Below are positions 10,703 to 64,000 of a DNA stretch of 64,000 nucleotides, piece by piece (the first letter of the stretch is position 1; each line of letters starts with the position of its first letter). The position numbers were made by a program, and so were the translations under genes. Source of the DNA: Cladopsammia gracilis (lineage: Eukaryota > Cnidaria > Anthozoa > Scleractinia > Dendrophylliidae). Location: positions 62,001-126,000 of the forward strand of contig JAJGOT010000358.1 of NCBI GenBank assembly GCA_022457155.1, written 5' to 3'. The notes under the pieces are model-generated. The model ran no database searches and was not told the origin of the DNA. It saw only the letters and a list, made by a program, of their open reading frames with translations.

Positions 10703-13700
10703 ATGCCATCCCTGCCTAAAAACATCATCGTTGTGGTTTGTGTACTTATTTGGACTAAAGTTTGTTCATCGCAGGATTTCATAATCGAAAGGAGAGATTC
10801 GACGGACTATTTTACCATTCCTCCGTCGATGTGTGACCAGAGAAATCACAATTTGTGCACTAAATATAATGCACAATTAGACAAAAAGTGCGATTGTTTT
10901 TGTGGCGGCCACAACGCGACCTTTTCGTTTCACAGTCAGTCTTGGTCTTGCCGCAACGCAAGAAGTATTTTTGGTAAGTGTTAGAAAGTTGAATAGATAG
11001 ATAAATATGTACCTACTAATGGCTGAGAAATAGCCAAAACTGTCGTCTTACAAAATTGAAAAGTGAGGGAAAAAATCAAACTTTTATCAGCAAATTTATT
11101 TATTTATTACTATTTAGAAACTATATTCAAACTCATTGAATATGTACAATAATAAAATAAAAAAAAAAATAAAAAAAAATATAAACAATACTACATAAAG
11201 AACAAAAAGGAGAGTTTTAAAAAGGGGCTAGCGAACGGATACGAGTTCCCGACGAGGCAACGGCCCACTGTATGTACTACTATATAATATTATATGTAAC
11301 ATAAGTAAAGTCGCGCACCCGAGCCAGAAGGCTCACAACGACCGGAGCTTAAACCCGGTTTCTATAGCATGAAGCGACTAGGAATATTGCTACTCCCCCC
11401 TGGATGGGATGCTAGTCCGTCGCAGGGTTACCCCCAGCATTTTGTCGCCGGTACCCATTTATACACCTGGGTGGAGAGAGACAGTGTGGAGTAAAGTTTC
11501 TTGTCTAAGGAAACAACACGACGGCAGAGACCAGGCTTCGAACCACCGACCTTCATGTTGAAAGTTCGACGCGCTAACCACTAGACCACCGTGCCGCCCA
11601 CTCTATCTAATATACTAATAATAAAATACTAACAATATACCAAAGTTTATGACATCATAACTAACAAAACTTTTCAGCAGCAGAATTGGGAATTGGATAC
11701 ACAGTCTTCCACGATCTGGGTCTTATACAAATACAATGTTCAACTTGTCAATAAATAATAAACAACAAACAACAACAACAACAACCACAACAACAATTTT
11801 TTCAACAAGAAACAACAACAACAATGTATACTTAGTATAATAATGAAAGAGTTGACTGATTTGTTTGCCCTGCAAATAGCTGGAAAGCTAATCGGTGCGG
11901 GACAAAACAAGTATAATTCATACACTTTCAGTTTAAAAGAAGCGAAAATTGCTCCTGACGGATTCAAGAGGTAAAATATTCCATAGTAGAGCAATGCGAT
12001 TCTGTCTGATACATATTTTCATTCGTTTCTTAGGGTGCAGACAGGGGATGTTCTTTGAAGATGAGAATTCAGCAGACAGTTTAAGATTCCTAAACAGGAA
12101 ATCATCGGAAAAATTGTTTTTAGGGTTGACATGGAAGAACAATTGCACAGCAAACGCATCTTCTTCATGGTACATAGGTTGTCAAGGAAACAAGGAAAAT
12201 TTTACGCCGACACAGAAGGCGTTTAAAATCGAATGGGATTCAAGTGAATCGGAGTACACTCTTAAGGTAAAAATAGATCTTTAAGCGTTTAAAGGTGAAT
12301 TACAGTCCGTACTGCGCAATCTCGGGGTTTGTTTTCATTTTTTGTTCTGAATTTGTTGATATGTTACACTTCGGTAACAGCATACATGAAGTAAATGGAG
12401 AGTTAACCGTCAGTCCGCCATTACGGCCGTTGTGTTTACGAATACTCGATGAGCTGAAACGTCGGTTTTGGAAAACTTTGGGGTTCTTTTACTTGTTATT
12501 ATTGTTTGGCAAGGACATCTGACGTTAATAATGAAGGAAAAGGTAAGTTTGTCCCTTAATTTTAATTTTCGCTAGTAAACGTTCCTTGTTTGTGAGTCTC
12601 ACAAACATTGCCGAGCTGAGATTGCGCAGTACGGACTGTAATTCATCTTTAAATTTTACTCCCAAGTATGCCCAAAATCAAAATTCAAGAAAAATTCCAA
12701 ATTTCATTTGAATGTATAATACTTAAAAAATAATATTAGTAATAATAGCACCATGCGACGGAATTGTCGAAGAGGTTTCATTTGAATGGTCTAACCATAG
12801 TATTTCGACCCAAGACTTAATAGTTAGAACAGCATTAAATGTCCCCATAATTGACTCTGGCAGAGGAAGTGTTAATAATGCTATCAAAGGCGGCTTATTA
12901 ACCAATCAAACAATAGGTGTTGATTTCCAAGCCAATGAAATGCGATATGCCAGAGCCAATTAAGTCACACTGAGGAATTTCCCACCTTTTTAGTTTACTC
13001 TTAATGTCATCGCTTCAAATGATTTATTGAGCCGTTAAAAATAAATTTATTTATTAAAAATAAATTTATTATAAAAAATAAATGTATTTATTGAGCATTT
13101 AAAAATACAATAGCTCCATTTAAATGCGGGTAGAAAAAAAATGTAATTTATATCATTATTATTGTTTCTAAATAAAGCGAAATTCTAGATTTTTGTCAAA
13201 TATCAAAAGAGGCTTACAAAAATATATTTTTTTCAAATTAGGATATACAATTGGCAAAACAAAAGCGTGCCATTTGGAGTAATTCGCATTGTTCAGCACT
13301 TTTTTTTAAATCAGGTCAAAATTCGAAAATTCAAAACAATATCACGGCCATAACAATTTTTCGAGTTTATGTTTCGAATTCTTAAATGCGTTAAGCTCTT
13401 GCGAGTGTCAGTTTGGGTTGAGAAGTAATATCAGAAATTTGAGGAAGAGTGGTTTATGAGAAGTTCCCAACATCGCGAACTGGATGAGTTGAAACACTCT
13501 TTCGGTAATTGTCTTAATTATCGATAGCTCCGCTAACTATCTTATCGTTACCTTCACTTGTCCTTTCCGGAAAAAGCTCGTCCACATTTCAAAACTGACC
13601 GCCATGTTGGACGAAACAGAAAAAATACAAATCTGTCATAATGTCTGCTGTGCGTCTGTTTAACAAATAGATTCCATTTGGCTGTGTGTCTGTTCAGTTA

Positions 13701-16700
13701 TAGATTACAGATGACGTCAAAATGTGCTAAGAACAAAAAAGTGGCGCACGAGCCGCAGGCGAGTGTGTCACTGATGCTCTTACCACATCTTGACGTCTTC
13801 TGTAATCTATAAATGAACAGACACGCAGCAAAATGGAATCTATTTGTTTTATACAATGAACAGAAAAGTAAAAAGAGTAAGATTACGAACTTGCCTCCTA
13901 GCGCTCAACTGTTCGAAGATTTGTTCCAGTTTAGGTATTTTTCAAGTCGCCAAGAACACTTTTCGTCTTGGTTTGGTCTTTATCTTGCTCGTAAACAGCT
14001 CCTGCTGAATATTTTTCGAGCCTTTCACTTGCTCAATCTAGAAAAATCTCGCAAACATTTTCAAAACTGTGCGCCATGTTGTACAAAACAAAGCAAACAA
14101 AATTTTCTATGACGTCAGCCGTGCGTCTGTACTCTGATAGATCATAGGCAACGACCAAACACAGAGCGCGTAGTATTCAGTTCATTGTATAAATTCTAAT
14201 AGATCATAGGTAATGGCCAATCAAAATACGCGTAGAATTTAGTATATTGTATAATACTTTTTCGTAGCTGAACATACCAAGTGATGATCCGCCGGTAGGA
14301 AGAGTCGTGAACCTTGGAATCACCTGCACCATGCCGGACAGCACTACGGAACACAGCTGTCTGCTGTTCAAGATAGAAGGAACGACTAACTGTAAGTTGT
14401 TACCACACAAAATAATAATTAATAGAGCGGTTTTTATTTCGTGAACACACGAAGCGTTGAACGAGATATACTATAGGTAAACTTTTTTTAATTCACCAGT
14501 GTATTACGCCATTCAATTGTCGTGACAGTCTCGTTTCACACAATGCATCTTGGACTTTAAACTCAGTATGGAAAATTAAAACCGATCTGTGGACTTAACC
14601 TTACATTGTTTCGTATTCACGAGAGGCTCTTAGAGAAAGGACGATAAGAGCCATCTAACTAAACAACGACCCCCATTTTTATTATCGAATTGTAACTAGA
14701 AACTTTTGTGAGTCACCTTTAACCCTATTTTTATGCAAACATGCATTTTCTATTGTTTCTGAGTACCAACATTGCCTCTGTGCATACGCGCTATATCTTT
14801 GCTGATGGGAGACGGCGTTGTCGTGTGGTTAGAGGCACTGGCTTTGTAATCCAGAAGCCCCAAGTTCAAGTCCGCTTCTCTGACCACCAGCTGGATTGGG
14901 AACACGATAGTCCCTTTAGTAAATCCTAAGCCACGCAATGTGAATAGGCAACCGGTTTGCCTCACAAGTTTAGTTTACTTTGGAGGCTCAGTTCAACGAT
15001 TTGTAGTGTCTCCAATTAGCATCGAAAATGGAGTGATTTATTATTATTGCAACTTTTATTTTCACTCAGGTCCAGTAACGGTACCAGTGACAATACCTCA
15101 CCCTTCGAAGGGCATGACTACAATAATCGACGAGGTAATAAAATCAACAACCGCTGTGACAGGGTCATTTCGGAGGTTATCCACTAGTCGACCTCCTTCT
15201 GAGGTACAAGCAGGTCACATGTTATAGTTATGAGTATTCTTACATGCACATGTCCGCACAAACATGGCCATTATACTGGCAAGAAACTCCTCAACATCTC
15301 GATCTTGGGCATTTTTTTGAGTCCCTGAGCCGGGGGAGGGAACAATGTGCCACACCTTCGTAACTTCGGAGCATTCAACACTATAACACTAAAACTCGTA
15401 GTTGTATAGTAGTTCTCAAACTCATTAATAATTCATGACGAGAACACAAAGGAAATCACTACCGTGAAGGAGGTTTTGAAATCGTTTCTTAATTTGCATA
15501 GATTTTGGCGATTTTATTCCTTCGTTTTCTCCGCATTTAACGATCAGTTTGAGAAGCTATATCAAACACTCGAAACAGTGTTTCATCAGATTACCAAACA
15601 CCTTGAAGTGGTTTTTCCAATCCACTTCTCGGTGTTTGGAAATCTGATGAAACACTGTTCCTCGTGTTTGATATATTACGTCCAAAACTCTTTCCTTTGC
15701 GTCAAATGACGTGGAAATCATGTCAATAGTTTTGCACAGCCACCAGCTTCAGTTACTTTTCTCGATTTCTTTAAAACCTAAGAAAACCTTCCAAATTGAC
15801 CAAAAAAAAAACAATCAAAACCAATAAAGAAAAGCCAAAAAGGTAAAATTGTGCATTAAAAGGTAAGAAAGAACAAAATTTCGAAAATGATACATTTTAA
15901 GTTTGGTGGTATATGCTTTAATATTAAGGAAAGTGTGTATTTCCGAATAGGGTTTAGTTGCAGTCACCATTGTGGTTGTTTAAACTGACGAGTATCCATG
16001 TTTGTCTTATCTCTATCTAGGCCAAAGCTGGTCCTAGTTCTGCCGCAGATCAACATGGTGATGACGTCAGTCTTCCATCATCTGTGGTTCTCACAGTAGC
16101 AGGAATCGGTGCTTCTCTCATTCTTATTCTTATAATTGGGTTCTTCATTTATCGTTGGAAATATTCAAGGTGGTTATTTGCAAGATAGATTTGCGATATG
16201 TGGTTTAAAGAAGTGACGTTGCACAAATTGCTTACTTTCTAAAACGTTTTTATATTGTGCTTTTTCCAAACAGAAACCAGTCTCATACCAGACATGCAGG
16301 TCAAACAGATCATACAAGTCATGCAGGTCAAACAGGTCAATCAGGATTGCAATCTGGTGAAAAAAATGCAGGCTACGCGACACTAAGTTGTAATGGCTCC
16401 GGTAAGTTTGAGAACTGATCGTTTTTGCGAATATCGATTGCTGATTGATTTGTTTTTAACTTCCTGACATCTTTAAAATAGCATTTTGTGTATTTAGCAA
16501 TTTTACAAATAAATAAATTAATTAAAAGTCTTCATTCTCCTTAAGACAAAAAGACATATCTTAAGTTAAATAAATACGTTCTAAATTATAATTAATACAT
16601 ATAAAAAGCGACCAAGAACAAAGACATACCAATTTTCAGTTTTCAATATACCGAAAGCATAGAGCACCAAAAGCAACTACTGCTCATCGGTACGACAGGA

Positions 16701-18729: not shown

Positions 18730-18818
18730 CCAGGAACAAACAGACAGTTTTGTCCCGTTTTACACCTTCATGGATGAAGGTGTGGAATCGGATAGCAACG
18801 AAACGCATTTCAAAGCAG

Positions 18819-18824
18819 AATAAA
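18819..18824 (+). terminator. Polyadenylation signal of P1
   Basis: AATAAA lies 90 bases after the P1 stop codon, in a plausible 3' UTR. Confidence 0.55.
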
Positions 18825-28100: not shown

Positions 28101-31100
28101 CATCTCTTCTGAATGTTAGCCTTCGCGGCAACGCGCCAGCTCTTTAGTGTTCCTGACGAAGAGAAGCGGCTGTATTGCAAACTTCAGTTAAATGCCCTTG
28201 ATACATTTTTCTCAGGGTTACGACTCTTGCCTGGTTAATACGGGGCAGGAATCGAACCTACGATAAATCACCCTTTCTAACCCAGAGTCGGTATGGAGAC
28301 ATGTAGTGTAGATCTTACTTTTGAGTCTGTGGACGAACTCTTATGGTGTGACCATTCAAATGAAACCTCTTCGGCAGTACGTATATACTTTTGCATGGTA
28401 CCATTTGTTCTAACTTTTGGGTCTGCTGATGAAATCCTATGGTGTGACCATTCAGTGAAACCTCTTCAGCAGTACTTTTGCATGGTACCATTTTTTTTTT
28501 CAATTTTTTACAAAACGAACTTTGGAATTTTTCTTGAATTTTGATCTTTGGCGCGCTTGGGAGTTAGAAACTAAGATAATTGTTCTCGTTGTTTTTCAGG
28601 TAAATAGTGGCGAATCAAGTACAAATGTAGTAATCGGACACATCATCAAACTGAGTATTAGATGTGACTACAGGTTTTTATTCACTGGTACAAGTCGTTA
28701 TTATACTCGTTCGCTGTTGTTCAAATACGTGGGGAATGTTACCTGTAAGTACTTTCAGAGTTTGTTTAGGCAGGTTACATCATCAGTTACATTTCCCCGT
28801 GTGGGCAATAAGGCAGGAAATCATCTTCACCCTTGGCTAGTCACCTTGTCGTGGTGGTGATGCTTGTCTTTAGACTATGAGAACTATGTCGGCGGGGGCT
28901 TTTTCTTCCGGCAGATTCAACTATGTCGGATTTGTCAAGGCCTAGGGTGAGAGGCTTGACAAAGAACTGCCGCTCCCCAAACCATTTTAGCTGCATTTTG
29001 CAACCCTATTCTAGACTAAACACCGAAAAACCCTACCCTATCCTAGACTTATTCCAGACTCACTATTTTCCAGAAACTCGTTCACTATCACAGTTATTAG
29101 TTATCAGGGGTCAGTAAAAATGCCGTACTGCTCGCCGTACCGATTTTTAAATGCCATTTGCTAGTAAACCTCGTCTAGACGAAATTCTTCACGTAACTGA
29201 TCAGTTTCGCGTAAAATGATACCTTATTCTAGACCAAAAATCTCTGAATACTATACCCTATCCCAGACTAAACTGCCTGAAAACCATACCCTTCAAAGCG
29301 GCACATATCTATGTAGCTTATATATGGGAGTACCCCCGCCCCCCTGCCCCCGGGTGTTTGGCGTGGGGCTAATCACTCCACCCTGTAAGAATTCTGCTGA
29401 TTACGGAAACAGGAAATTGTCTTAGCCACTTTACAGTTAGAGGTAAATAAAACACAAAAGACATAAAGACCACCCCTCTGCAAAAACGATATCGATAAGG
29501 CAATGAAATGTTGCCTAAGAACAAAAAATTACTACACTCAAATATAAATATATTTTTCTATATATTTCGATAGCTTAATATACAATTAGTTATCTTTATT
29601 TACATTGTTTGTTGTTACCATTTCAGGTCCTAAATTACAGCCTTCTAAACAAGGCTTATCCATCACAAGACAGAGACACGCAACATTACTACCATCTACA
29701 ACATTGCAAATGATAACGGCCTCAAAATACACTAAAACTGGTTCGCTGGTCGCTTCGCCGGTCAGTACTGTCACCACATTTCCGACCGAAATCGCTCCGA
29801 TATCGGCTGTTTTGACTACTCAATCGGCATTCTCCGACAGCTCACGGAATGTATCCATGACTCCAACGACCACCTCTGTTATTCAGCGAACTGTTGTGGT
29901 TCCATTACCAACAAAACGTTCACGAGAAATCCAGCCAACTGTCAACTTTTCATCTGTCGTAAGCAATCCAATTCTTGTCTTAGATTTGTAAACAAATACA
30001 AACAGATGCAAACTAAAATCACGGGGACATGTCACCGATTTGAAGTATCACCTTAAAAAGCCAAACAAAATATGTTTTTGGATCCAAAAATGCCAAAATT
30101 CACACGACATTGCTCCTTTATGCATGTCTGCGTTATTAAAATGGGCCAGCTAATTTGGACGGGACGTGTGGTAATGACAGCAGTAAACTCATGTGACCAT
30201 TTTAGGAATGCTTTCAATGCACCAATAATACCTATGAATTGATACCACATCTGTATACAGTTTGTTAAATTGTTGGCACTCAACAACATTAACATTATAA
30301 CATTAATTCGATTAATTAAGTAGTAGATAAAATACGAGCGGGAGATCTGTATGGGCGTTTAGGCGAGCCATTGTAAACGCCCATACAGATCGTACGCGAA
30401 TTTAGTTAGCTGAAAATCAGGTTAGCTCAAAATCAAATGTGTTCTACGAAGTATCAGCCTTGCTTAATTTACTGTTTAGTGATCGATTTCATATCACATG
30501 GTTACTACATGTAGCTTAATACAGCTGTAGAATCACGTTAGGTCACTACTTAATGCTTTCTTGTGTCTTTTGTTCGCTAGGTTTCCTCCCAGCCTACCGC
30601 CGGTAGTGAAAGAACCAATGGGGACGACAGTTTATTACCTCCCAGCCTCATAGCAGTAGTGATAGGAACAACTACATTTGTATTCGTTGTCATCATCGTT
30701 GGCTCTCTGGTTTATCGCCGACGCAATTTAAAGTAAATAACTTATGTCTCTGAATGCGACCGAACTCGATGCTTGTCCATACCTCAACGTTCATTTGTTT
30801 CCATTCGTTTCGTATTCCAAGCATACCGTCAAACAACGCTAAGCGGCGAACCATTAGATTTGGCATAAATGTGTTTCGATACAGTTTTCTGGAGACCACA
30901 CCTACATTTTTCAATCGGCTTATAAGCAGTCTTTTCCAAGTCAGATCAACGTAAAATTTTCACTAAGTATATATTCTGGTAAAATTATATATATTATATA
31001 TCGGTGTCAAAGAGTAGCTTTATATTATGTTTGTAAACCTTCAAAGTTTTGTTTAATTTCTCTTTTGCGATCTTAATAACTACTTTTTTTTTCCTAACAT

Positions 31101-33342
31101 CGCTTCATGTGCACTTTTTCGGTAATTTTCGATTTTAATCGCTTTTACAAAAGTCTGAGAAACGGCTCGATGAATTTTTTAAAACATTCACTGCGCATGG
31201 TTACCGATGTGCAAAATATTATCTGAAAGTTTCATTGACATTGATTCACTGGAACGCCTTTAAATTAAAGATGAAGAATATATATCTTGCCAAAGTTCAA
31301 TTCAAAACCAGTAAGTGGTTAAAATTTCACCTTCATCTGACTTGGAGAAGACCGCTTAAAAGCCGATTGAAAAATGTAGGTATGGTCTCCAGAAAACTGT
31401 ATCGAAACACCTTAAATGCACAGGGATTACTTTCTTATACGAAAATAAATCCGATCATATTTCTTCTAGAAAATCAGGTACATTCTTGCTGATTACAATT
31501 TCATACTATTGTGTCCACAGTAAAACGCCACGTGCGAGCACCATATGTATTGATGAGACAAAATGGGTGAGTGCTTTACCAAAAAGTTAACTGTTTGTTT
31601 TTTACGGCTACATAGCTTTACATTCACCAACTTCTATTGACATTTTCGTTTTAGGATTCAGTTATCCTGAGCCCGCAAATAAACTCAGCGTACGCGCCAG
31701 ATGATCAAGACTTGTACAGATCACTCAGCATCGAAGAACCACGTGAGTTTATCAATCTTGCCTTATATATGTGTTAATGAAATTTTTCAAAGAAAATGAT
31801 ATAGTAAATTAGGTGAAAATTGCTATAGATAATTCTTGAGATGAAGAAAAGGGCAAAGTTTTGCGAATCGATTATTATAGGACGCTTTGAACTCACGCAG
31901 GATTCAAAACCAGTAAATACAATAACACGATAATCTCGAATCAAACCTCGGTCTCGGCGTCATATGTGGGCTGCTCCTTGCTCCGAGAGGTTTTTCTTCG
32001 GTTTTCCCTTCTCCTCAAAAACCAACATTCTAAATTCCAATTCTATCTGGAGCGCACGAGTACGTTTGAACGAGCTCCTGAGCTAATAGGTGCTATTTGG
32101 GTAAATACAATAACATTTTTTTTCGCGGGAATTTTCATTGCCATGTTCTTCACCAATTGATTTTTACTGCATTCTAAGATGTAGGTTAAACCTCCCTTTT
32201 ATAATGGACAAGCATGGATAACAAATCTAACTAATTAAGTTTAAAAGGTATTCATTCTGGAGCAAAATTAATTGAATGATTGAAACATTGCAGGGACCAA
32301 TTCCACTTTGTCGGCACAGAAGTGTTTACATTTGAGGTTGTTTGTCTGATAAGGATGTTTGTCTTAGGTGGGTGTTGGTTCAGTGGAGCGAGATGATGTA
32401 GAAAGAATTGTCTGGACAGACATAGCCTGTCCGTGAAGGCAGATGAACATTATATGAGAGTAAATTGGCTTCTTTACAAAGTTTGTTTATTTCATTTCTT
32501 TTTACTATAACTATTTCTCAGCAATCTGTGGCACATATTGCAAGGTTCGTAACCATCCATCTACAGCCGTCATACTAAGCAACCTGGACACACGGTCAGG
32601 TGAAGCTGATACCGCTGAGGAACACTACGCATCTCTGAACAACTCAGATGAGCAAAATATTTATGGACACGGAGAAACTCAGGAGCCATTGTATAATGTT
32701 ATAGAGGAACCAGTCTCTGAAGAAGAAATCCTTTATGAATGTTATGGTCCCACTGTAGAAGAGCCTGTCAATGATGATGTCGAACCAACATACAACGTCT
32801 TGGAGGACCCTTCTGTTGAAGGTCCAGAAGGGTCTGTCAATGATGATGTCGAACCAACATACAAAGTCTTGGAGGACCCTTCTGTTGAAGGTCCAGAAGG
32901 GTCTGTCAATGATGATGCCGAACCAACATACAACGTATTGGAGGACCCTTATATTGAACATCCAGAAGGGTTTGTCAATGATGATGCCGAACCGACAAAC
33001 AACGTCTTGGAGGACCATTATATTGAATTTCCAGAAGGGTTTGTCAATGGTGATGCCGAACTAGTATACAACGTCTTAGAGGATCCTTATATCGAAGTTT
33101 CAGAGGGGTCTGATCATTATGGTGCCAATTCTGGGCAAGGCCCCTTTCCCAGAAATACTTTAGATAGATCATCTCAGGATTGTACTGTGGGACCAAATAA
33201 CGATTCTCAATTCATCAATGAACCAATTTATGATGTTGCGAAAGATGACAGTTGTCAAACTTACCAAAGTCCTACAGCTGAAGACGATTTTGTTACAACA
33301 GATTTTGTGAAAAACGTTCTGAAAAAACTTGAGTTGGAATGA
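25188..33342 (+). CDS. P2: receptor-like type I membrane protein with YNVLE-repeat tail
   Basis: Eight exons: 25188-25509, 27768-28018, 28600-28744, 29627-29958, 30581-30732, 31521-31566, 31655-31742 and 32522-33342. Phases are 1,0,1,0,2,0,1; the product is 718 residues. A signal peptide (about 1-21) precedes the six-Cys module C-x9-C-x14-C-x-C-x-C-x15-C with ENATF. Exon 2 has GYSLYIGCDG; exon 3 has SIRC but lacks the second Cys seen in P1, P4 and P5. The stalk exon encodes about 110 residues rich in Ser/Thr. The transmembrane helix is at about 373-395, followed by YRRRN. Exon 7 carries DLYRSLS, and the last exon carries HYASLN, LYNVIE and five 23-residue repeats with TYNVLED. P2 and P3 share exon lengths (322 and 88 nt) and motifs, so they are a close pair. 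Function unknown; receptor role inferred from architecture. Confidence 0.88.
27226..27296 (-). repeat. tRNA-like sequence in P2 intron 1
   Basis: On the minus strand the 71 bases form a perfect 7-bp acceptor stem (GGCTTGA/TCAAGCC), a D arm GCTC...GAGC and a TTCGAAT T-loop. The anticodon loop reads ACGGTAT with C instead of the universal U33, and the anticodon and T stems each have a mismatch. It is more likely a tRNA-derived repeat or pseudo-tRNA than a functional tRNA. Confidence 0.55.
28312..28560 (+). repeat. Two-unit copy of the 106-bp repeat family in P2 intron 2
   Basis: Two units with TTTTGAGTCTGTGGACGAA or a close variant and GGTGTGACCATTCA, followed by the family's conserved end (TTCTTGAATTTTGATCTTTGG) just upstream of exon 3. 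Confidence 0.75.
30344..30391. repeat. Perfect 18-bp hairpin in P2 intron 4
   Basis: GATCTGTATGGGCGTTTA (30344-30361) is followed after 12 bases by its exact reverse complement (30374-30391). It may be the end of a decayed foldback element; no partner copy was seen. Confidence 0.8.
30868..31415. mobile_element. MITE in P2 intron 5
   Basis: About 75 bp at 30868-30945 (with GTTTCGATACAGTTTTCTGG and CATTTTTCAATCGGCTTA) recurs inverted at about 31337-31415. The region between is non-coding. Confidence 0.75.
32770..33114 (+). repeat. Five 69-bp (23-residue) tail repeats in P2
   Basis: Units start at 32770, 32839, 32908, 32977 and 33046. Each encodes NDD(V/A)EPT-YNVLED followed by an acidic PEG segment. 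Units 1 and 2 differ by a single base (AAC to AAA, changing YNVL to YKVL), pointing to recent duplication or conversion. In unit 4 the tyrosine codon TAC is AAC, giving NNVLED. Confidence 0.93.
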
Positions 33343-40244: not shown

Positions 40245-43200
40245 AAAAAGCACAACAACAGCAGCAGTAACAAGATCAACTTCGCTTCTGAGAAGTAAAA
40301 CGGAAACTACCCATACAAGTGCTTTGGTTTCTCTGCCAGTAACCTCTGTCACCAGTGCGACAAGATTTGGTACTGCGCCGACTGTCTCTTTTAGTTCACC
40401 GACCGTCACCGAAAGTCAAACGACTGCCTTTAAAGTTACACAGACCTTGCATGAGTCACCCATCTCTATTAGTCGATCTATCGTCTCTGTGACTTCACCG
40501 ACAAAGGCCGTCTCCGAAAGTCGAACGACAGCCTCTGAATTCCCACCGACCACATCAACCATTACTCGATCAATCTTCTCTGTTGCTTCAGTGAGCATGT
40601 TTGTTTCCGGATCAAGCGTCTCCTTTGTTCAACCAAGCGTCTTCGAAATTCCACAAACTGTCTTCAGTCCACCAACAACGATACGACCACCAGATACTTC
40701 ACATACCACAGATGTCTCTTCTAATGTAAGGATTACACTAAATACATGTACTAACTGCCGTTTTCCCTGATACCTATCTCGTAAATACTTATTTCTAAAA
40801 ACTTGCATTGCGTGTTGAACACCGTAAAGACGTATCGCGGTAGGGAATATAGATTAGCTGTTTGTTTGTACGGGGAGGGTGTGGAGTTGGACGTAGAAGG
40901 TAAGGTCGGTGGGGTAAAACGCCTAGGAGAGGGAAGGGTCCGAAGGTTGATTAATTTGGTATTCACAAGTTGGTTTCATAGGAGCTTCTGATTAGACCTA
41001 TGTTATTATGTATAATAACATTGTAATAAGTTACCCGCAACTTCAATTCCTGTTTCCTACAGTTTCCTACCCAGCCTAGCTCCGGCCGCGAACGAAGCAG
41101 TGGTGCTGACAACACATCTTCTCTGGGTATAATCTCAGGGATTGTTGCCTCCGTTCTACTCATCGTCATAATCATTGTAGGCTTCCTATTGCATCGTCAC
41201 AGCTGCTTAGGGTAATTGAAGATTGTCCTGAATTAAACAAAATCATTTAAGTAATTCTCCACATAAAAACTACAGTAAACTTCATTGTTCTGCGGCATTG
41301 GCTCTTTCTCACATAGAATTTCTTTGAGTTCAAGAATAGAGGAGAGGCTGATGGTTCATAGTTATATTTCAGTATAAAAATAAAGAAAATCCATTTGCAT
41401 CAAATAAATTTTAGGAAATGTTCGTAATTAACAAATCAGAATAGCAGAAGACAACAGCTAATAATTTTGCTTCTTTGATGAACTTCCTCAAATACAATTT
41501 CTCTTAAAAATTGCATCTTGTGCGATTGGGTCTCAAATTACTTGAAACCTTTAAAAAATCAGACAAAATGCACCTTGAACCTTAACTTTTTAGCGGTCTT
41601 TGAGTCTACGTCAATGAGATCACTAGTTGTAACAATGAAAAAAGTTGACATTCCATCGTGCATTGCCGTTAGCACTTTCCTTCTTATGTGGATCATTCCT
41701 TAATGATATATACCGTAAAATACCGGTTACAACCCCCTCCGCCTCCCGCGTATTATCCCCCCGGTTACAGTCTCAACGGTTTGACTGTACCCCCTCCTAT
41801 ATATAAGCACGCCGTAGTTCGTTAACAGTAATTCTTTAGAAAAAATTGCACCAATTAACTAAAACAACGCTTCTTTATCATGTTGTTTTTTTGCTTTTTA
41901 GCCAAAATACTCCAACGATACTCCAGAACTTATAAACGGCATTTTATAGTATATTTTTAACTTGACCACCTAACTCCCAAAAGATACATGTGCTAAGTGT
42001 AATTAACCAAGAACTAATGAACTATAGCTTTCAATCTTAAAGTTTGGAAGGGTAAATAAAACCTACAGAACGTACCTCTTTGGTCAATCATATCCTTTTA
42101 CTCATATACGCCTTAAACAAACAAACTTGTGGGCACACACGTTCTTAATATATTTCTTTACTAATCAGACCTACAAACGTACCCCCACCCCATGTTTAAT
42201 TATTATATGTCACTAACCGTTTCTTTTCTTTGTATATCTGCAGGAAACCCTGTTCGAGAGACAAAAACGAAGGAAACAAGGTAAAGACTGAAGAATTATG
42301 TATAACGATTTATTTTAATATTGAAATAATCACATGACCATCTTATTTCTAATTTCTATTAATCATTGTGTTTGTCTTAGCATTCAATAACGATGAGCCC
42401 GCAATCAAACTCAGCATACGAACCGGATGGTGAAAACTTGTACAAGGAACTCAATTTCAGTAAACAACGTAAGTCATTCTTTGTAATAATTTTACAAATA
42501 GCTGGCCAGGCATTCAACAAGTAAAAGCAAGTTTCGAAAACATGTTCGCTAATGAACAGTTGAGAATTTGGGTTTGATCATCAAGATTTGTAACTTTATT
42601 GGTTTATTTTCGTCACATAAAAATCACAGTGATCTTTTTAGAAATAATACTGATATTGGTAGTAAATATTCAGGGTTGTCAGTACAACAAATGACGACTG
42701 CGATATATTTTGCCATTCTTGTTGAAAACTTCTCCAACAAAATACAAAAAATACAAAAGACAAAAGTGTTGGGAATTAAGGTTCCTTATTTTTCTAACCC
42801 CTCCCCTCTCATCCCCCCTCTTTCAAAGTTGCTGTTAACGTAAATACTTAACTTACACTGCCTTTTGTATAGACGTCTTCAACACTGGATTTGGGGGAGA
42901 AGGGGGCTATAAAAAGCGTTACGCGCGTCTTTAATTGAGCTGAAACCCAAATGTGAAGTCATTTATTAGCGTTTTACAAATCTTACCAATTAATTTAGTC
43001 CTAGGTTGTAGTTATTAGGTAGAGTAAAACGAAAACCGTTTTTAGTTCTTTGCATAATCCTAAATGCATTCACCATTTTTTTCAGGATCAGTGTATGCTT
43101 CACACTATAACGTTCCTGATGTTCCAGCAACAGATGGAACAATTATTAATAAGAAGAAACTGTCGGATCACGCTGACAATGAAGAACATCATTTCTACGC

Positions 43201-46628: not shown

Positions 46629-46661
<33 letters not shown>

Positions 46662-50700: not shown

Positions 50701-53700
50701 TTCGATGTCGCAGACATTGTTATATTTCTGACAGTCTTTAAGGTAAATAAATAAGCGGTACGTCTTAAATGCCTTGGGAAAAACGTCGCCTTGTGTGTGT
50801 CGTTTGGAGATGTTGCAATCTCACTCAGGGGTCATTCAATCAATTCAGTCCTGAGAAAAATGGACGTTTTTAAGACAAGATATAGTAAAAATAGTGTGAT
50901 TCGTTGACTAAATTTTGTTTTTATTCATTGAAAGCTGCATTATTATAACTCTATGACTAACTCTCTGCTTCTATTGCATCATTATAGCAATTTTAGTATT
51001 TATATATATTTATTTATTTATTTATTTATCTATTTATTTATTTATCCTAATCATGCTTCATATGCAATCCGGGTAACTGCAGCTGGGATTAAAACGTTTT
51101 CAGAGCGTAGAGCTTTTGTCTGTGACATCGTTTGTCAACCTATTGCAAGCAACTGTAATAGTAAACTGCACTGCTTTTTGCCACCCTTAAAATCCACGAA
51201 TTATAAATTGAGAAATGCAAGTTCGAGCGCAATTCCAACTTGTAGAACAGACCGATTCCAGAAGTCCTTCTTTATTGCCCAAGCATCGCAAAAAACAACT
51301 TGATTGCAAGCGTATATAAGTTTTCATTTTATTAGCCTCATGATTTTAATAGGATTTAAAAAATTATGATTGTAATTAGCTGCCAATATGTGTAAACAAT
51401 AGATATGTGTTATTCAGCTCTTTTTGCTGCAAGGCTGATTTAATAAACAATTATTATATATTATTACTATTATTAGACAGTTTGAAGGCTATTGTAGACC
51501 CTGATAATGTTATTTTTTCTTCTCTCTAGGTCCGTGTACGTCTGAGCCCAGACAGTGGACGTGATACAAACAATAACTCATCTTCATTGGGTCTAATCAC
51601 TGGGATCACTGTCTCGATTCTACTTATTGTTATTATCGTTGGGTTCATTTTTTATGGGCGCCGTTATTCGAAGTAAGAATTGATTACACGAAGTGTTGAA
51701 GTCGTCTTCCATATTTATTGCAAGAGAGCTTTGTTATAACTTAACAAATGTGTTTTAATTATAATACCAAATGAACAATTGGGAAATGAAATGAAAAGAA
51801 AACAAAAACAATACAAGGAAGCCTTATAATTGTGTCAATTGTTCAAACGCTTAGAGCGTAAATAAAGGGGAACGCAGCCGAGGGAATGGAACACAACACA
51901 CAACAGTTCTCATTTATAAAACCCCTCAACTTAATTCATTCTTAAGAGGGCTATGTCACCACTTTTGGTGTTACTTTAGAGCAGTTTTCAACTGAGTGTC
52001 GTAAAACCAAAGTAATTACTCTGACCAATCACAGCAGTCGTAAACAATCCAATGAACCAATCAGAGCTCGAAGCAATTGCATATCGGAGGCGCCAAGCGC
52101 GGGAAAACGCGTGCGAGCAAGTCACGATTGGTTTTGGTTTTACTTCTGATTGGTCGAGAAAGTGGCGCAAGATTTTTTAGTCACTCACAAAGCCTAGCAA
52201 TGCAAAACCAAAAAAAAAAAAAACTTTCGATACTCAATTGAAAACTGCCCTAAGATTAGCGGAAACTCAAAAATAATGGTCCAGTTGTGTTTAAAATTGT
52301 AATGTTTGTTCTCTAAGTGTAAAAGTAGATGTATTTGGCTGCAGATGATCAGGATGGAAATAGCTAGATTGCAACTTGAAAAATTGCCTTTTGCTGTTTG
52401 GTAAAACGATTTTAATGTTTACGAAATTTTATGTTCACAGTAAGATATCTGATGCAAGTAATTGCTGTACCGAAGACGGAGAAGAACAGGTAACAGTCGC
52501 AGAAAATATAAATAACCGCTATATAAGAATAATCGGCAACATCTTGCCATAATTTGCTATACGTAATCAATCAAATCAATAAACTTTATTTAAATGTCAA
52601 AAGACCGCCTAGCCAGGGAGAAATCTCCCTTACTAATATGGGGACATGCGGTTACACAAGTAATCTTTTCGAGGATCTCTTATAACTTTTGGCTAGCGAT
52701 AGTAAAATATGCAGGTCAAGCGGAGTACGGGCTCTGGAAAGGAGATTGCATTAAACAATATCTGAAAGCTTCTAGCGCAAAGTCCGTTTCCAGCCTCCTA
52801 CGCAACACCCTGACTCAGAAAACGGCCTGTCATTGGCTAATAAGTGGAAAATGATAACGCTTTTTAACATTTACTCTATTTTGCTATCTTCACAGGATAC
52901 AGTAATGATGAGAACGCGAACAAACTCATTGATCCAGCAGGATAATGAGAAAATGTACAAAGCTCTCAATATCAGAGCAAACGAACCAAGTAAGTCTACG
53001 TGTAAATCGTGTTTTTTTTTTATCGCAGTGGGAAAATTTTAAATAATAAATCTTATGAAATTCTTTAATTATCCTATTCCAGAACTTTATGCATTAAATT
53101 ACTGTGTGCCTCAGAGTGCAGCCACGAGAGATAATCACGACATTGATCACTTGTACGATACCATAGATGATCCCGAAGGGTACAACACGGAAGACAGTCA
53201 AGAATCATTCTATAGTGTTCGAGAGGAATGTACTCTCAACGGCGAAACTGAATTAAAACACCCTGCTTCGTACAACATCTTAGACGAAGAACGTTCCGCT
53301 AAGGAAGAACCTGAGGAGGCTGTGAATTATGGTTCAGAACCAATGTACAAAGTTCAGGAGGAACCATATCTTGTAGAAGGACAGAGCTCTGGTGATTGTG
53401 GTTCAATCTCTTCAGAAACACAAGTCACAGCGGAAGAATCTGACAGTAATGCTTCAGAACCAGTGTTCAACGTTTTGTTGCCTTATCTTGAAAATACACA
53501 GAGCTCTGCTGATTATGGTGACTTCTCTTCAGGAGGACAGGCCACCGCGAATGGACCTGATTCACCTGACAGCAGTGGTACAGAACCAACAGTGTCCAAC
53601 GTTTTGGAGAAACTTTATATTGGAGATGCAAAGAGCAATGGTGATTATGGTGTGAGCTCTTCAGAAAGAAAAGTCACGGTGAAAGGACCCGAGGTTCGTC

Positions 53701-57606: not shown

Positions 57607-57617
57607 GAAATCGAAAC
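57607..57617 (+). promoter_or_regulatory. ISRE-like site upstream of P5
   Basis: GAAATCGAAAC fits the interferon regulatory factor half-site pair GAAANNGAAAC, 63 bases before the P5 start codon. P1 has a looser pair (GAAACTAAGAAAC) about 40 bases before its start. Short motif matches are weak evidence. Confidence 0.3.
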
Positions 57618-57679
57618 CCACAGTTGAGACTGAAATGTCTTCTTGAAAAAAGCTAGCGCAGTTCCAAATTAATCAAATA

Positions 57680-60600
57680 ATGATACCGAATGATATGTTG
57701 ATAACAATATTGACTTCGATTATTTTAATCCACTTTTCCACTGGCTTCAATTTGGAAGACGTTTTCGTCATTAACAGAAACACTGGGCCACGTGGCAACG
57801 TTATGAATGGCAAGGACTCTTTTAAGATTTCTCCTTCGTTATGTAATCGAGCTTTGCCTAGCACAGGGGATGAATGCGAACCATTTCAGGCGGATCCTCC
57901 GACCAGCCAGTGTTCCTGTCCGTGTCCAGAAAGCAGAGCCACGTTCGTTTTCCAGAACAGTCTATGGACGTGTCTTGAAAATGGCAGAATAAGAGTTCTA
58001 CAAGGTAACGGTATGATGGTTCATTTTAATTGATAGAATGTAATTGATTTGATTTGCGTAATTTAGAGTGAAATGATATAGACATCATTAACCTCTGGTG
58101 CTGATTTATATGTACAAGGTCAAAACAACATTGATCCTTCATAAAATCTGAAATAAATAAACAAAAGACAGATACCAAGAGGCATTATTGGTTTGTAATT
58201 CAATGCAGTAAAAAATAAAACCAAAGTAAACTCACTGACCAGTTATCAGAGATATAGACAATGCAGTGAACCAATCAGAACTCGATGCAAATAGTTACGT
58301 GAACCCTGAGCCAAGCGCGGGAAGGTGTGCAAGCTAATTATAAGTCACTAATGGTTTTGGACTTATTTCTAATTGTTTTACAAAATTAGCGCGTGTTTAT
58401 TTGAGCAATTACAAGATGTTGTTGCCGAAAACCATACATATATGTATACGTCTGAGACCCGATACGGGTAAAATACAGAATCTAAGGATAAGTTTTCTGG
58501 AAAACGAAAAGGTTAAAAGTTAGATATTTCTTTATGTCAACTGGAACAAAAACAACCGTTATTAAAAAAGGTACGGTCGGAAATGTTCAGCAAAGTGAAC
58601 GAGACTACACTGTGTGATAAATAATGAGAATTAGTTGGTAACCTAGACACAAGTCAGGCAGGATATACGACTCGCACGTACCCAGATTTCCAAGCATGCC
58701 CCCGAGACAGGCCAATATCCTCTGTGCGCGATAAAGTTGAGCACTAGTCGGCACGCGTCGTGTAAAAGAGGCTATCAACAGATATGATGGAATCGAAATT
58801 CCTGTTTTGTAGTTGTCAAAGGCCAAGAACCACAACAACAAGAAAACGGTACTATAGCGGACGGCAGAGTGATCAGCTTCTCATCGTAGTAAAGAGAATC
58901 GAGTTCCTCTAATTGCAGCCGCCCATCGTGATAATAATGCTGACGCGCCTAATGAAGACTCGCAGTGAGGATTCAAAACGTCGCGATTTACATGGCTGCA
59001 TCATACGCTTTTCAGTTATAATTATTATTGGGAGCATTTATTTATTTACATTTATTTATTTATTTATTTATTTATTTATTTTGAAGTCTTACTATTAATA
59101 CGTTTTGACAGAACAGTTATTGAAGTGATTTCATGTACGACAAAAGCACCAACTTAAAATAACAAAAATATTTTCATTAAACTAAAATCACTAGGATACT
59201 GTTTTTTGATTTATAATTTTGTGAAGGGATGAAGTTATAGGTTATAGGTCAAGGCCCTGAGAGTGGGGTGGGGGAATCGATACATAGTTAGAGTTTTCAT
59301 TATATGCCACAATAAAATATATTGGTCTCGGTGGTCGTTGTGCTATTGATTCTTGCTTACAAGTACATTTTCGGATTGTTGGGCGTAAGGGCAAGGATAG
59401 AGGTTTGGCTTAAATCTAATATTAATTTGTCTTCTTTGTACACGTTATTTCATTAGATTGCAACCAAACAACTCATTTCTTGAATGAGATAAATCCCAGC
59501 CGGTTGTGGACGTTAAACATACCAGATACAAAGTTAATCCGTATTTCTTACGGTGGGCAACATGGCTGGCAAAGCTGTGAGGTACATTTACATTCTTCGT
59601 GGTATCTCGGATGTAACGGGACGCGAGCTAGTTCAAGTCTGTATCTTAGGAAAATGAAGGAACTGTTTGCATTTGAAGGATTAGCCTCTGCTAGTGGTGG
59701 TCATCTTGCTCTAAAGGTAAGAAATCGTCATTGAACTTGACTTTAATCTCACACAATAGGGCGATCTTTGTTTACACTTTTTGCCTCATTAGCATATGTG
59801 CATCATTTTCTAATCGAGCTACAACAAAATCAACTCTGAATATTGATAGGGCATAGTACAATTAGCCATCTATGGTTATTTAAACCCTTTTGAACCTTTT
59901 TCGAATACTCTTTGCGCAATGCTGTTTTCAAAACTCTAGATTTTACAAAGAATGTATGGCTCATAAGCGCTTTTGCCAGCCAGCAATTTTGCAGTTTTGG
60001 ATAGCTTATATTTTCTTAAATATTACATGCAAAGAGCTAAAAAATGGGGTAGATTACTAAATTTAACAAGCTCTTTCAACTGTTGAAGTCAATTCGTATT
60101 TAGCATAATTAATGTCTTCTCTACGTAAATTGGTTTGCTAATGAGACAAAATGTAAAATCTTTGATAACAATACACTGATAGATCGCAGCATACACAAAC
60201 CCATAGCTTAACCATATTGGGATTTAACCCTACCCACGTTGACTTTGGAAGTTTATAACAGTTAGAAGTATTTAACCAATACTCACCAAATGCGACTTGT
60301 TCTGAAATGTATCTGGAGACAATGTGGCGGAGTTTTGTTTCAATGTCAATTTCATTGGTTTCTTATTCCCTTTTCACATCTCGTCCAGTTTGAAAATATT
60401 TCTTTTTTTCTACAGGTTAGCGGAGGTATACAAAATGCACACTTGTTACAAGGAAAAATAATCAACCTCGGTATCCGATGCACGAGACCCAATCATCTTC
60501 CATATCACAGCTGCTTGATGTTCAAATTAATTGGACAACAAACATGTAAGCAAGGCAAATAAAGTATATGAATTGAATCATATATCAACTGCGGATAGAG

Positions 60601-62466
60601 AATGTAAAGTGAAGAAATTATCCTCGTAGTTGTGTTTGCAATTTAAGCAATTGCAAAGAAGCCTAAAAAAAATAGGGTTTCAAAGGTATTTAAACCCATG
60701 ACCGTCGCATTACCTGTGCAATGCTCTAAATAACTGAGTTTTGAAGCCACATACATTGGGAGCAAGGTTAATTGTGGGTTGATGTGTTCCCAGGAAAGTG
60801 GTAAAGAATGACAAAGGAAGCCGATCATTTTTTTTTTCAGGTTTCTTTGCAATTCCTTAAATCGAAACACAACTACTGCGAGAATCATTTCTTCAATTCA
60901 CAAACATTTAAGCTTGAACCTTTTTTACGTACACTTTAAGAACATTGTTTTTTTTTTTTATATTACCATATTACTCGAACAGATTATTATTATCTTCTTC
61001 CATTATTTAGAACAATTTTTGCTATATATTTTCACTTTGTCTTTTTGTGCTCATTTGGGCCATGTTTTTGGGCCATGGTTTTTGCGCCAAATGCAGGGAT
61101 CGCCTCATTGCACCATGTTTTCCATTACATTTGTATGATATTGTACCGACATGTTGTACCATATAGTTTTGCAGTATTTTTTAAACCTTATTTTCCAACT
61201 AGATCAGTTTTCTTTGTTCTTTTCAGGGGAATATATCACATAACCCGGTTCATTACAGTGCTCGAAAAGCTGGGTGCGGCTTTGATTATAACAGGGGAGC
61301 GGCGTGGCTGAAAACAATAACTGATAAGAATAGCAAAACAAAGGATTATATAGTCCCCTCGTAATATTCCCCTGGCATTAGTCCCCTAGTAATAGAATAA
61401 CACAAACGGGAAGACAAAATAGGGATTAACAAGGAAACACACAAGCATCAGTCAATATATTTTGTTTACATAAATCACAACTTCATCAATCTTATTCCAA
61501 CATAATTAACTTGCCGGGTCACGACCAAAAAGCGAAATGTTGATGACATTATTTGATGGTATCGTACCTCGATTTAGGTTTCGCGTCTTCAATAGTGTAT
61601 GACGCCTCCGTTTACGCTTGAACCTGAATATTTTTTCCGCCGGTTTCCCTTGGAAAACACACCGAAATCCACTCTATTGATCTTCGAAAGATGAAGGCAG
61701 GCAGTTGGGCCATGGCGAGACCACGAGTACTGTTCATCCATTTTCTTCTCTCTCTCTCTCTCTCCCTCCTTCTACTCATAACGAAGCAACGTGCTCAATG
61801 CAAATTTGGCAAAAGCAAAACATGTTTACCGTCTCGCTAGTATGCCGTAATCCCAATGCGGCCTTGCGGAATCATGCATTTTTGCATTTGAATTGAACGG
61901 AATGTTACTCGCTGAAAAATTAATAGTTTCTTTGTTTTTAGAAAACCTCACAAGGCTACGCCCTCGGGTACGCCACGAGGGGAATATATCACATATCCCC
62001 TCGCTCCAGGTCAATAACCCTTACATGTTTTTAATATTTGCGGTAATGATCTTCGAGGCTCAATGCAAGCTCAAGTCGGCATACCCTTTCTCTAAATTTC
62101 ATGCAAAAATTAGTTTTCGTAAGGTTTCGCCGTTTTGCAACACGATTACTAAAGAAAAGGCCTGTGAAAAATCGTGCTCACAATGCAGCCCTCTATGTCA
62201 TACATGCTATATATTTATGGTGAAGCTCAACGCTAGGCTTCTATTTATTTCTCCTGCCGGTGTATAAGCATTTAGGTACTGGTGCTATAAGGCTTGGCAT
62301 TTTAAGGGAATATAAAACAACTATAAATGCGACTGTATGTTTATTAGGTCCTGAACCAGTGCCCAATTTACAAACTTCTTCCACCGTGATACCACAGAAT
62401 ACCGCAACACCCACAGGAACACCAACTGAGATCGTTACGACTGCGTTACCGTCCAACATGTCCAAC
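57680..62466 (+). CDS. P5: receptor-like protein, 5' exons only (partial)
   Basis: Four exons: 57680-58004, 59457-59716, 60416-60545 and 62348-62466, phases 1,0,1,0, giving the first 278 residues. A signal peptide (LITILTSIILIHFSTG) may start at M1 or M6. The six-Cys module is C-x10-C-x11-C-x-C-x-C-x15-C with ATFVF; exon 2 begins DCNQTTHFL and holds HSSWYLGC; exon 3 holds GIRC and SCLMFK. The stalk is short (about 40 residues, Thr/Pro-rich). The donor after exon 4 is intact (gtaagt), but no transmembrane or tail exon appears before the LTR element. The remaining exons either lie beyond the window or have been lost. Closest to P4 in exon sequence and length. Confidence 0.82.
58196..58400 (-). 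mobile_element. Degenerate MITE family F2 copy in P5 intron 1
   Basis: Recognisable words of the 51975-52253 copy remain in order (CCAAAGTAA, GAACCAATCAGA, GCCAAGCGCGGGAA, TGGTTTTGGACTT) with many changes and lost ends. Confidence 0.6.
60636..60865 (-). mobile_element. Small element with inverted ends around a tRNA-like core, P5 intron 3
   Basis: Ends AATTGCAAAGAAGCCTAAAA and TTTTCAGGTTTCTTTGCAATT are inverted repeats. The centre, on the minus strand, is a decayed tRNA-like sequence (ACTCAGTTATTTAGAGC, then GTCATGGGTTTAAATACC). Confidence 0.55.
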
Positions 62467-62743
62467 GTAAGTATGCGATGAAATATTGTTATGGTAACAT
62501 GCAAACATGCAAAAGGAAAAATAGGAGTTAACGATCTATCAGTTGGATGTATAGCATACAATAGCATAGGAATGGACTTCAGCAGAGAGAGTGTCTGATA
62601 AGCCCAGACGATTAAATTGCTGAATTCCCGCATCTGGAGAAAATATAAAGAATACATGTGCATGTAAAGAGTACAGGAACTTTGCATCTTGAGTCGATAA
62701 TTATTTTCTTACGTACGTCATGTTGCTCGTAAAATACTTTTGA

Positions 62744-64000
62744 TGTCACAGCTCGTTGTTATGATATTGACTATTATATTTCCGGTACAATTGTTATAGT
62801 ATTTCCGGTACACGTTTAGACACGTGACCTCGAAGACTCGTGTAACTTTGACCATGCGGTCGTCTTGAAGTGAGCACTGATTAAACTGTTGTTGTTTATC
62901 TGCATTTACTTGATCGTAACATGGTGTCAGGAAGCGGGATTCGACCTAGCTGTTGATGTTCATATTGCTGCTTCGAAATTTTCAAGTTTCAGCGCTTCGT
63001 TCGCAATTGGTAGAAGGTTAAGTCTATAGTTTGCGTTCGGTTCGTTGCATCACAAGTGCCATGGCTGCTGTCACTACAACCGCTAAAGTTCCCTCCCCGT
63101 TGAATTTATCGGATCGCTTACACCAAGGAGAGAATTGGAAGTCGTTCCGTCGAGAATGGAAGTTCTACGAGATTGCGGCTGGCATTCATAAGAAATCACA
63201 GGATGTTCGAGTGGCATCATTGTTAAATGTCATTGGAAAGGAAGGCATGGATATGTATGAAACTTTTCAATGGAACGAGGCGTCGGATGCTCTGAAAATT
63301 GACAAGGTGCTGGAAAAGTTCGAAGAACGTTGTTTACCAGCCCGTAACGAGACTTACGAACGATATGTTTTCTTCAAGCGCGAGCAGTTGCCGAACGAGC
63401 CTCTGGATAGCTATATCACCGCGTTGATGAAATTATCGGAGTCATGTGGTTTTGGCACGCTTCGTGAATCTCTGGTTCGTGATCGACTGATTCTCGGTGT
63501 CAAAGACGACAAAGTTCGTGAAAAGCTTCTTGGAAAGCGAGACCTTGACCTGGATAAAGCCATCGAAACTATCAAGGCAAGTCAAGTCACTCACTCGCGA
63601 GCTACGGAGATTTCAGGAGAAATTCACGAAGATATCAACGCAATACACCACAAGTCGAAGTTTCAAGGAAAAGGCAAGCGCGGGAAAACACCGACTCGCA
63701 ATCCGTCTCACAGCAAGGGACTTCCTACATTTAAAGAGTGTTTGTTTTGTGGTGGTAATCATCCACTGGAGAGAAAATTGTGTCCGGCCTCTGGTCAGAA
63801 ATGCAAGAAGTGCGGAAAAGAAGGTCATTTCGCAGTCAAGTGTGGGAGCAAGCCTGGACACGAGAAAGTCAACATGGTTGAAGAAGTCTTCTACATCAAC
63901 ACTATAGTCGGCAAAGATCAAGCCCTTGTTTCGCTCAATGTGAATGATTCAGCTTTAGTAACATTTCAGATTGATACTGGTTCCACAGCGAACATCTTGC
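62744..64000 (+). mobile_element. Ty3/gypsy-like LTR retrotransposon, 5' end
   Basis: A probable 5' LTR ends in CA at 62921. It is followed at once by TGGTGTCAGGAAGCGGGAT, which looks like the primer binding site typical of gypsy-type elements, then a leader and a gag-pol frame. The left edge is uncertain (TGTCAC at 62744 is a candidate) because the 3' LTR is outside the window. The element lies downstream of P5 exon 4, so it is either in P5 intron 4 or has displaced the 3' part of P5. Confidence 0.7.
63061..64000 (+). CDS. Retrotransposon Gag and start of protease, open to window end
   Basis: The frame is open for all 313 codons from ATG 63061. Residues about 1-200 resemble a retrotransposon Gag capsid region. 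A first Cys/His cluster of odd spacing (C227, C230, H234, C241) precedes a canonical CCHC zinc knuckle (C248, C251, H256, C261) that would bind RNA. At 304-307 the retropepsin active-site motif IDTG appears in the same frame, so Gag and protease are fused without a frameshift. No stop or frameshift is seen, so this part of the element looks intact. Confidence 0.85.
   Translation, partial: MAAVTTTAKVPSPLNLSDRLHQGENWKSFRREWKFYEIAAGIHKKSQDVRVASLLNVIGKEGMDMYETFQWNEASDALKIDKVLEKFEERCLPARNETYERYVFFKREQLPNEPLDSYITALMKLSESCGFGTLRESLVRDRLILGVKDDKVREKLLGKRDLDLDKAIETIKASQVTHSRATEISGEIHEDINAIHHKSKFQGKGKRGKTPTRNPSHSKGLPTFKECLFCGGNHPLERKLCPASGQKCKKCGKEGHFAVKCGSKPGHEKVNMVEEVFYINTIVGKDQALVSLNVNDSALVTFQIDTGSTANIL

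Follow-up and report, generated by a model that had tools for sequence, protein, structure and literature searches.

The 64,000-nucleotide window analysed here is C1005:62001-126000 of the Cladopsammia gracilis assembly (877.8 Mb in 1,469 contigs, to which our C-numbers refer), and it carries part of a tandem array of receptor-like genes with tyrosine-rich tails. ABC transporter exons lie at the window's left end (Pfam families ABC_membrane, E 1.9e-32, and ABC_tran, E 4.6e-14), and from position 10703 onward five plus-strand genes, P1 to P5, follow one another head to tail. A preliminary description of this DNA had placed five genes here with a shared exon order, shared intron phases and shared cysteine spacing, and our gene models, derived from a comparison of the five copies under GT-AG and phase rules, agree with it. 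P1 has seven exons and encodes 570 amino acids (aa), while P2, P3 and P4 have eight exons each and encode 718, 674 and 966 aa, all with open frames and GT-AG introns. Exon ends in P1-P4 fall in phases 1, 0, 1, 0, 2, (0), 1, where the bracketed value belongs to a small cytoplasmic exon that is missing from P1; the phases 1, 0, 1 at the ends of exons 1-3 are common to all five genes.

Exon 1 of each gene encodes a signal-like N-terminus, judged by its hydrophobicity rather than with a predictor, and a divergent domain of the Sha_B_N type (PF23328) whose match stays below the family cut-off in every case: 10703-10973 in P1 (E 0.066), 25188-25509 in P2 (E 0.47), 37814-38135 in P3 (E 0.027), 47708-48020 in P4 (E 0.0079; an exon frame 76% identical to it is found on another contig) and 57680-58004 in P5 (E 0.026). 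Across the five exon 1 peptides 18 columns are invariant, six of them Cys. The ectodomain continues in exon 2 (P1 12034-12266, with an SSWYIGC block; P2 27768-28018; P3 39170-39396; P4 48398-48669; P5 59457-59716) and ends in exon 3 (P1 14268-14391; P2 28600-28744; P3 39801-39918; P4 49821-49950; P5 60416-60545), the splice models of these two exons being joined in P1 by a paralogue alignment. Exon 4 encodes a stalk, which is Ser/Thr-rich in P1 (15070-15203), P2 (29627-29958) and P3 (40157-40725, where it is long), and is also present in P4 (50387-50562) and P5 (62348-62466). A transmembrane (TM) helix occupies exon 5 of P1 (16021-16169, hydropathy 2.69), P2 (30581-30732, 2.71), P3 (41063-41211, 3.11) and P4 (51530-51672, 2.91).

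On the cytoplasmic side, P2-P4 have a weakly supported micro-exon of 37-49 bp (31521-31566, 42244-42280 and 52441-52489), placed by splice rules and mutual similarity alone, and then a juxtamembrane exon (31655-31742, 42381-42468 and 52896-52989), to which exon 6 of P1 corresponds (16274-16401, with a YATL). The last exon is the tyrosine tail: 18056-18729 in P1, 32522-33342 in P2, 43086-43600 in P3 and 53083-54806 in P4, whose tail is long. Motif analysis covered all four of these tails, and repeat analysis found tandem repeats in three, of 111 bp in P1 (18136-18475), 69 bp in P2 (32757-33112) and 129 bp in P4 (53336-54285). All three periods are multiples of three, and as each of these genes has its own period, valency seems to be set gene by gene. 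P1-P4 are thus predicted from their sequences to be type I membrane proteins with a signal-like N-terminus, a Cys-rich ectodomain, a stalk, one TM helix and an acidic tyrosine tail. The preliminary description gave helix and tail to these four, which is correct, but P5 has both too: exons 1-4 of P5 lie inside the window, and its TM frame (C1005:130536-130682) and tail frame (C1005:131866-132795) follow 4.5-6.8 kb past the window edge. Between the P5 stalk exon and the P5 TM frame, at window positions 63022-63999, sits a long frame with a retroelement-type CCHC zinc knuckle (gag-like; E 0.0011, below cut-off).

These five genes are the first of the array, which has at least 12 (P1-P12), spread over about 191 kb of a single strand of the single contig C1005. 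Used as a genome query at E <= 0.05, exon 1 of P2 found nine copies and exon 1 of P11 found ten, each count including the query itself and all copies lying on the plus strand of C1005; an eleventh match of P11 exon 1 (C1029, E 0.056) has three stops and was taken as chance. A further 150 kb was read rightward of the window; in it P6-P12 each show a frame for exon 1 and one for the tail, and P7-P12 a TM frame as well (that of P6 was not sought further). Exons 1-3 of P6-P11 splice in the same phases as those of P1-P5, and exons 2 and 3 of P12 were located by profile matches (E 0.0022 and 1.1e-9). Manual trimming was applied to the starts of the P5, P9 and P10 tails and of the C310 tails used below, and to the end of P7 exon 3. 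Between P6 and P7 (C1005:190923-191657) lies a further tail copy, 86% like that of P6, which has an in-frame TGA and looks like a pseudogene.

The preliminary description found no recognisable ectodomain, and this view has to be revised: both profile and gene structure mark exon 1 as probably a divergent Sha_B_N-type domain. For every one of the five window proteins, PF23328 is the single family that Pfam lists. Among 13 ectodomains (P1-P11 and two genes that exceed the cut-off), it matches nine at E <= 1, while six other families match one member each; exon 1 of P6, tested by itself, reaches 21.4 bits, and its N-terminal part also weakly matches Rft-1. Five exons in the genome exceed the Sha_B_N cut-off, one at C1005:6828-7016 on the strand opposite to the array and four on C310 (at 1274921, 45071, 18479 and 1300513). 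We read three of these five genes, referred to as C1005:6.8k, C310:1.27M and C310:18.4k. The first scores 33.9 bits against PF23328 in the genome search and 30.8 bits when tested singly. It and C310:1.27M have a three-exon ectodomain which translates without stops and whose phases, read by eye, match those of the array. C1005:6.8k, with its three ectodomain exons in the array's order, runs off the contig before any TM segment. In C310:1.27M a stalk and a TM frame follow, and the tail contains YQPL, YRLL, YLSL and YQTL.

A profile of P1-P11 exons 1-3 finds C1005:6.8k with E 2.4e-14 (49 bits), compared with a best E of 0.026 when the two sequences tested, this one and C310:1.27M, were shuffled 1,000 times, and profile-profile comparison of P1-P11 with both of them gives a probability of 96%. 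The exon 3 profile alone finds C1005:6.8k (E 2.8e-7) and C310:18.4k (E 8e-9). The latter gene combines a Sha_B_N exon (C310:18479-18670, 31.0 bits) with an exon 3-like frame and a TM frame, and six [E/D]P[ML]YNVL[E/D] motifs stand in its tail frame of 320 aa; its exon 2 was not found by profile search (best E 0.21). The tails lead to the same gene: a genome search with the P6 tail (E 0.01) gave 19 matches, of which 18 lie in the C1005 array (three in the pseudogene copy) and one at C310:1774-1971, 16.5 kb downstream of the Sha_B_N exon C310:18479-18670 and on the same strand, and the reverse search with the C310:18.4k tail gave eight matches, namely itself and seven in the array. Because the searches in both directions match only the array and this gene, the tail was seen with no other ectodomain family in this genome. 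Cluster profile, exon structure and shared tail together make it likely that the array ectodomains are homologous to the Sha_B_N genes that pass the cut-off, and the window proteins are likely to be divergent relatives of Sha_B_N, though not members by Pfam's rule.

The tails contain many YxxL/I motifs, as had been noticed earlier. The 12 array tails, which hold 186 tyrosines, were shuffled 1,000 times to give expected counts: Yxx[LI] was seen 80 times against 17.6 +/- 4.0 expected, and the extended core xPxY[NHS]x[LI][EDQ], a pattern picked after inspecting the tails, 36 times against 0.1. The enriched motif can be written [E/D]P(V)YNVL[E/D][E/D]P. At the 94 sites chosen by Yxx[LIV] alone, proline stands at -2 in 44, valine at -1 in 37, asparagine at +1 in 38, glutamate at +4 in 45 and glutamate at -3 in 34. 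Most cores are spaced by 18-54 residues, gaps in P4, P8 and P12 being wider in places, and some motifs have been lost from the P5 tail. A second, membrane-proximal motif (as in IYASNYSVP) occurs by pattern in 7 of the 12 tails, and N[IVM]YG in 6.

This motif agrees only partly with the immunoreceptor type to which the tails had been compared. The strict immunoreceptor tyrosine-based inhibitory motif (ITIM, [ILVS]xYxx[LIV]) is at chance, with 10 seen and 7.8 +/- 2.6 expected, and the hemi-ITAM (hemITAM) pattern [DE][DE]xGYxx[LI] is absent from 13 tails. The spacing of the activation motif (ITAM), Yxx[L/I]-x6-12-Yxx[L/I], occurs 8 times against 0.7 expected, in only 5 of the 12 tails. The immunoreceptor switch motif (ITSM), YxxM and NPxY are absent, with 1.1, 1.2 and 1.2 expected, and YxN was seen 11 times against 15.0. 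The general pattern YxxPhi (Phi, a hydrophobic residue) was seen 98 times against 34.9 expected, so that by sequence the tails would qualify as cargo of the endocytic adaptor AP-2 (adaptor protein complex 2).

A profile of seven of the 12 tails, chosen by hand, finds 133 proteins. Of the 120 listed, 119 show the core motif once or more when its pattern is loosened slightly, a count that is partly circular as the proteins were found by a profile of these motifs; 13 of the 120 were read individually. Named relatives among the matches listed come from Oculina patagonica (four, including ACROYT_G032956/959/964), Desmophyllum pertusum (one, OS493_035972), Porites lutea (one) and Stylophora pistillata (three, including LOC111340984/LOC111340990), all annotated as hypothetical or uncharacterised, and a literature search with five such identifiers turned up no papers. 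The Oculina rows have their longest contig, of 23.46 Mb, in common, and the Stylophora rows likewise one of 243 kb, which suggests that the tail relatives are clustered in both species. In the Desmophyllum model a single protein combines a Sha_B_N-like exon (E 0.15, below cut-off), an SWYYGC block, a TM segment and the tail; exon 3 is absent, and the closest array gene is P11 (49.7% over 185 aa of ectodomain). Pieces nearest P4 (76%), P6 (69%) and P10 (83.5%) come from rows sharing one 750,188-base longest contig, and suggest that a relative has a single array corresponding to this one. For exon 1 of P4, P10 and P11 there are relatives with 68-76% identity, each clearly nearest to one array gene; four other hits (P0004-P0007) are not independent, being kin of the C310 gene included in the query. 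The family is not private to one species: its tail has relatives in several stony corals, partly on shared contigs, and the Desmophyllum model has the ectodomain too.

Identity is higher in motif windows than in linkers in five of five pairs of an array tail and a relative from another contig (0.91/0.77, 0.90/0.67, 0.63/0.25, 0.67/0.35 and 0.59/0.33), although these pairs were hand-picked and start from array-gene tyrosines, which biases the comparison upward, and the Oculina pairs may be paralogues. Between array paralogues, the nonsynonymous distance dN (0.26-0.50) is below the synonymous distance dS (0.54-1.36) in seven of seven pairs, chosen by hand from 55 possible, and the ectodomain is thus on average under purifying selection.

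These results support the preliminary description in its central proposal, a distinct cnidarian receptor-like family, predicted to be single-pass, with constrained tyrosine tails and in a tandem cluster. We consider it rather probable that the array of at least 12 genes encodes single-pass receptors with an ectodomain derived from Sha_B_N and an [E/D]PxYNVL[E/D] tail, which signal by ligand-driven tail phosphorylation and docking of SH2 (Src homology 2) domains. On the sequence side, the reading is carried by the tandem array and the exon phases common to its genes, by the profiles that tie its ectodomain to a PF23328 gene of this genome, by a second Sha_B_N gene over the cut-off whose tail has this motif, and by motif windows that are more conserved than linkers; the membrane topology is predicted. 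In this mechanism, the Cys-rich domain would bind an outside partner, a Src-family kinase would phosphorylate the tail tyrosines in their acidic setting, and SH2 domains with a hydrophobic +3 pocket, of the Src, Syk/Shark, Csk or SHP type rather than of Grb2 or PI3K, would bind, with the repeat units setting valency. Such a pocket is the known preference of the Src, Syk/Shark, Csk and SHP classes, and the genome has 65 exon-level SH2 matches, all over cut-off. To judge by their sequences, the array proteins are likely to act as multivalent SH2-docking scaffolds.

Several observations weigh against this reading, besides the hand-made choices already given for the extended core and the tail pairs. 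The window proteins score 11.2-16.9 bits against the PF23328 curated cut-off of 24.4, and no array protein tested singly (P1-P5 and P6 exon 1) exceeds it. In the genome search two array exons (22.1 and 21.1 bits) did no better than three unrelated places, which score 20.9-22.0 bits, so that in that search the match of one exon to PF23328 does not stand out from noise. The link to C310:1.27M is marginal: the P1-P11 profile finds it with E 0.0013 and the exon 3 profile with only E 0.039, its tail has no YNVL core, and its exon 1 as a genome query finds itself only. Exon 2 profiles do not find the over-cut-off Sha_B_N genes (best E 0.095-0.25), the search with the P6 tail misses those of P1, P8 and P12, the P2 ectodomain found no relative in the protein database, and ectodomain fold comparison was uninformative and assigned no fold. 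YxxPhi is, moreover, also an AP-2 signal.

This last point leads to an alternative that we regard as unlikely but deserving of weight, namely that the proteins are endocytic cargo or scavenger receptors whose YxxPhi motifs are AP-2 sorting signals for ligand uptake, without phosphotyrosine signalling. The excess of YxxPhi fits it, and many animals have tandem duplicates of multivalent clearance receptors. AP-2, however, needs little beyond the tyrosine and the +3 residue, and the preferred residues from -3 to +5 with their acidic setting exceed such a signal and suit a kinase and an SH2 site with a hydrophobic +3 pocket; so many repeats, mostly 18-54 residues apart and at sites hundreds of residues from the membrane, are also unusual for sorting signals. 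The Sha_B_N link raises a different option, on which we would place rather little confidence: morphogenesis proteins like Shavenoid that organise actin-rich projections (cilia, microvilli or nematocyte structures), with the tail as a scaffold for actin regulators. Fly Shavenoid is reported to induce the polymerisation of linear actin in wing hairs (PMC9375228), but the link covers the N-terminal domain only, by Pfam name, and any connection of the array to actin-rich cell projections is a guess by analogy with the fly. The preliminary description had held that a match of the ectodomain to a non-receptor family would speak against receptors. Shavenoid is indeed an actin-hair protein in the fly; of the three over-cut-off Sha_B_N genes read, on the other hand, two show frames for a TM segment and a tyrosine tail and the third runs off its contig.

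A role in recognition, also raised earlier, lacks direct support. An allorecognition or symbiont/microbe recognition complex, with polymorphic receptors whose tails set activation or inhibition as proposed for Hydractinia Alr and Botryllus FcoR, could account for the tandem cluster, the receptor layout and the core Y-x-x-I/L/V, which FcoR tails carry alone or with an ITIM or hemITAM according to a review (PMC12065747), and for the contigs that tail relatives share within Oculina and within Stylophora. Yet dN is below dS in every pair tested, strict ITIMs are at chance and hemITAMs absent, and exon 1 relatives that each match one array gene suggest stable genes, so we find such a complex improbable. 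That the array is a chance or pseudogene product, open-frame repeats with no expressed receptor, is very improbable indeed: the extra tail copy with its stop and the motifs lost from P5 would fit, but the shared phases, the excess of dS over dN and the relatives in other corals with conserved motifs argue against it.

Compared with the three Sha_B_N genes that pass the cut-off, the array shares the three ectodomain exons with C1005:6.8k, these exons together with a TM frame and YxxL tail with C310:1.27M, and exon 1, exon 3, the TM frame and a YNVL tail with C310:18.4k; it differs in staying below 24.4 bits (22.1 at best), in the SSWYxGC block and in its high copy number. The unnamed coral proteins share the array tail, and the Desmophyllum model also has ectodomain exons 1-2. 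To Drosophila Shavenoid the likeness is in the N-terminal domain, by Pfam name only; sha has been described as specific to insects and arthropods (PMC9375228), and the over-cut-off Sha_B_N exons in this genome speak against this restriction at the level of the domain.

Hydractinia Alr and Botryllus FcoR resemble the array in their tyrosine-motif tails and clustered loci and, for FcoR, in type I layout. According to PMC12065747, FcoR differ by their immunoglobulin (Ig) and sushi domains and ITIM/hemITAM motifs, and ITIM, ITAM and hemITAM motifs are reported for Hydractinia alr candidates. Pfam lists no Ig family for the array ectodomains, with fold comparison uninformative on this point. The Ig folds of Alr are themselves atypical. 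Vertebrate ITAM/ITIM receptors such as CD3 zeta and the Siglecs likewise have YxxL/I motifs, and the YNxL core recalls the CD3 zeta half-ITAM and YASL/YATL the Siglec ITIMs. The array differs in having proline at -2 and acidic residues at +4/+5 instead of a hydrophobic residue at -2, and in a core spacing far from the 6-12 residues of the vertebrate ITAM.

Literature searches brought up no named coral receptor cluster of this kind. The locus connects a domain familiar from hair formation in the fly with receptor-like proteins of a coral whose tyrosine motif is repeated and constrained. It provides a concrete, testable gene set for asking by what means corals may perceive neighbours, symbionts or their own matrix, and offers a motif for studying the origin of tyrosine docking codes outside vertebrate immunity. 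One could go further, in a speculation to which we give low credence, and see in the array an ancient, tandem-expanded, non-immunoglobulin Sha_B_N family serving as a surface recognition complex of stony corals, in which paralogues would sense different partners (neighbour, symbiont or microbe) and each would report by EPVYNVLEE phosphotyrosine docking repeats in a number particular to it; such a tyrosine code would differ from ITIM, ITAM and hemITAM.

Other features surround the array. A 106-bp satellite of 8.5 copies lies at window positions 7745-8652, and its frames resemble one at 28281-28541. Just right of the array, at C1005:272593-273231, there is a frame for a Pox_A32-type packaging ATPase (E 4.8e-15), and other long frames beside it point to a virus-like or mobile element. 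Elsewhere in the genome, GFP-family exons give 39 matches, all but two in arrays on C1227, C580, C1408 and C1127, and arrays of GFP genes are usual in corals.

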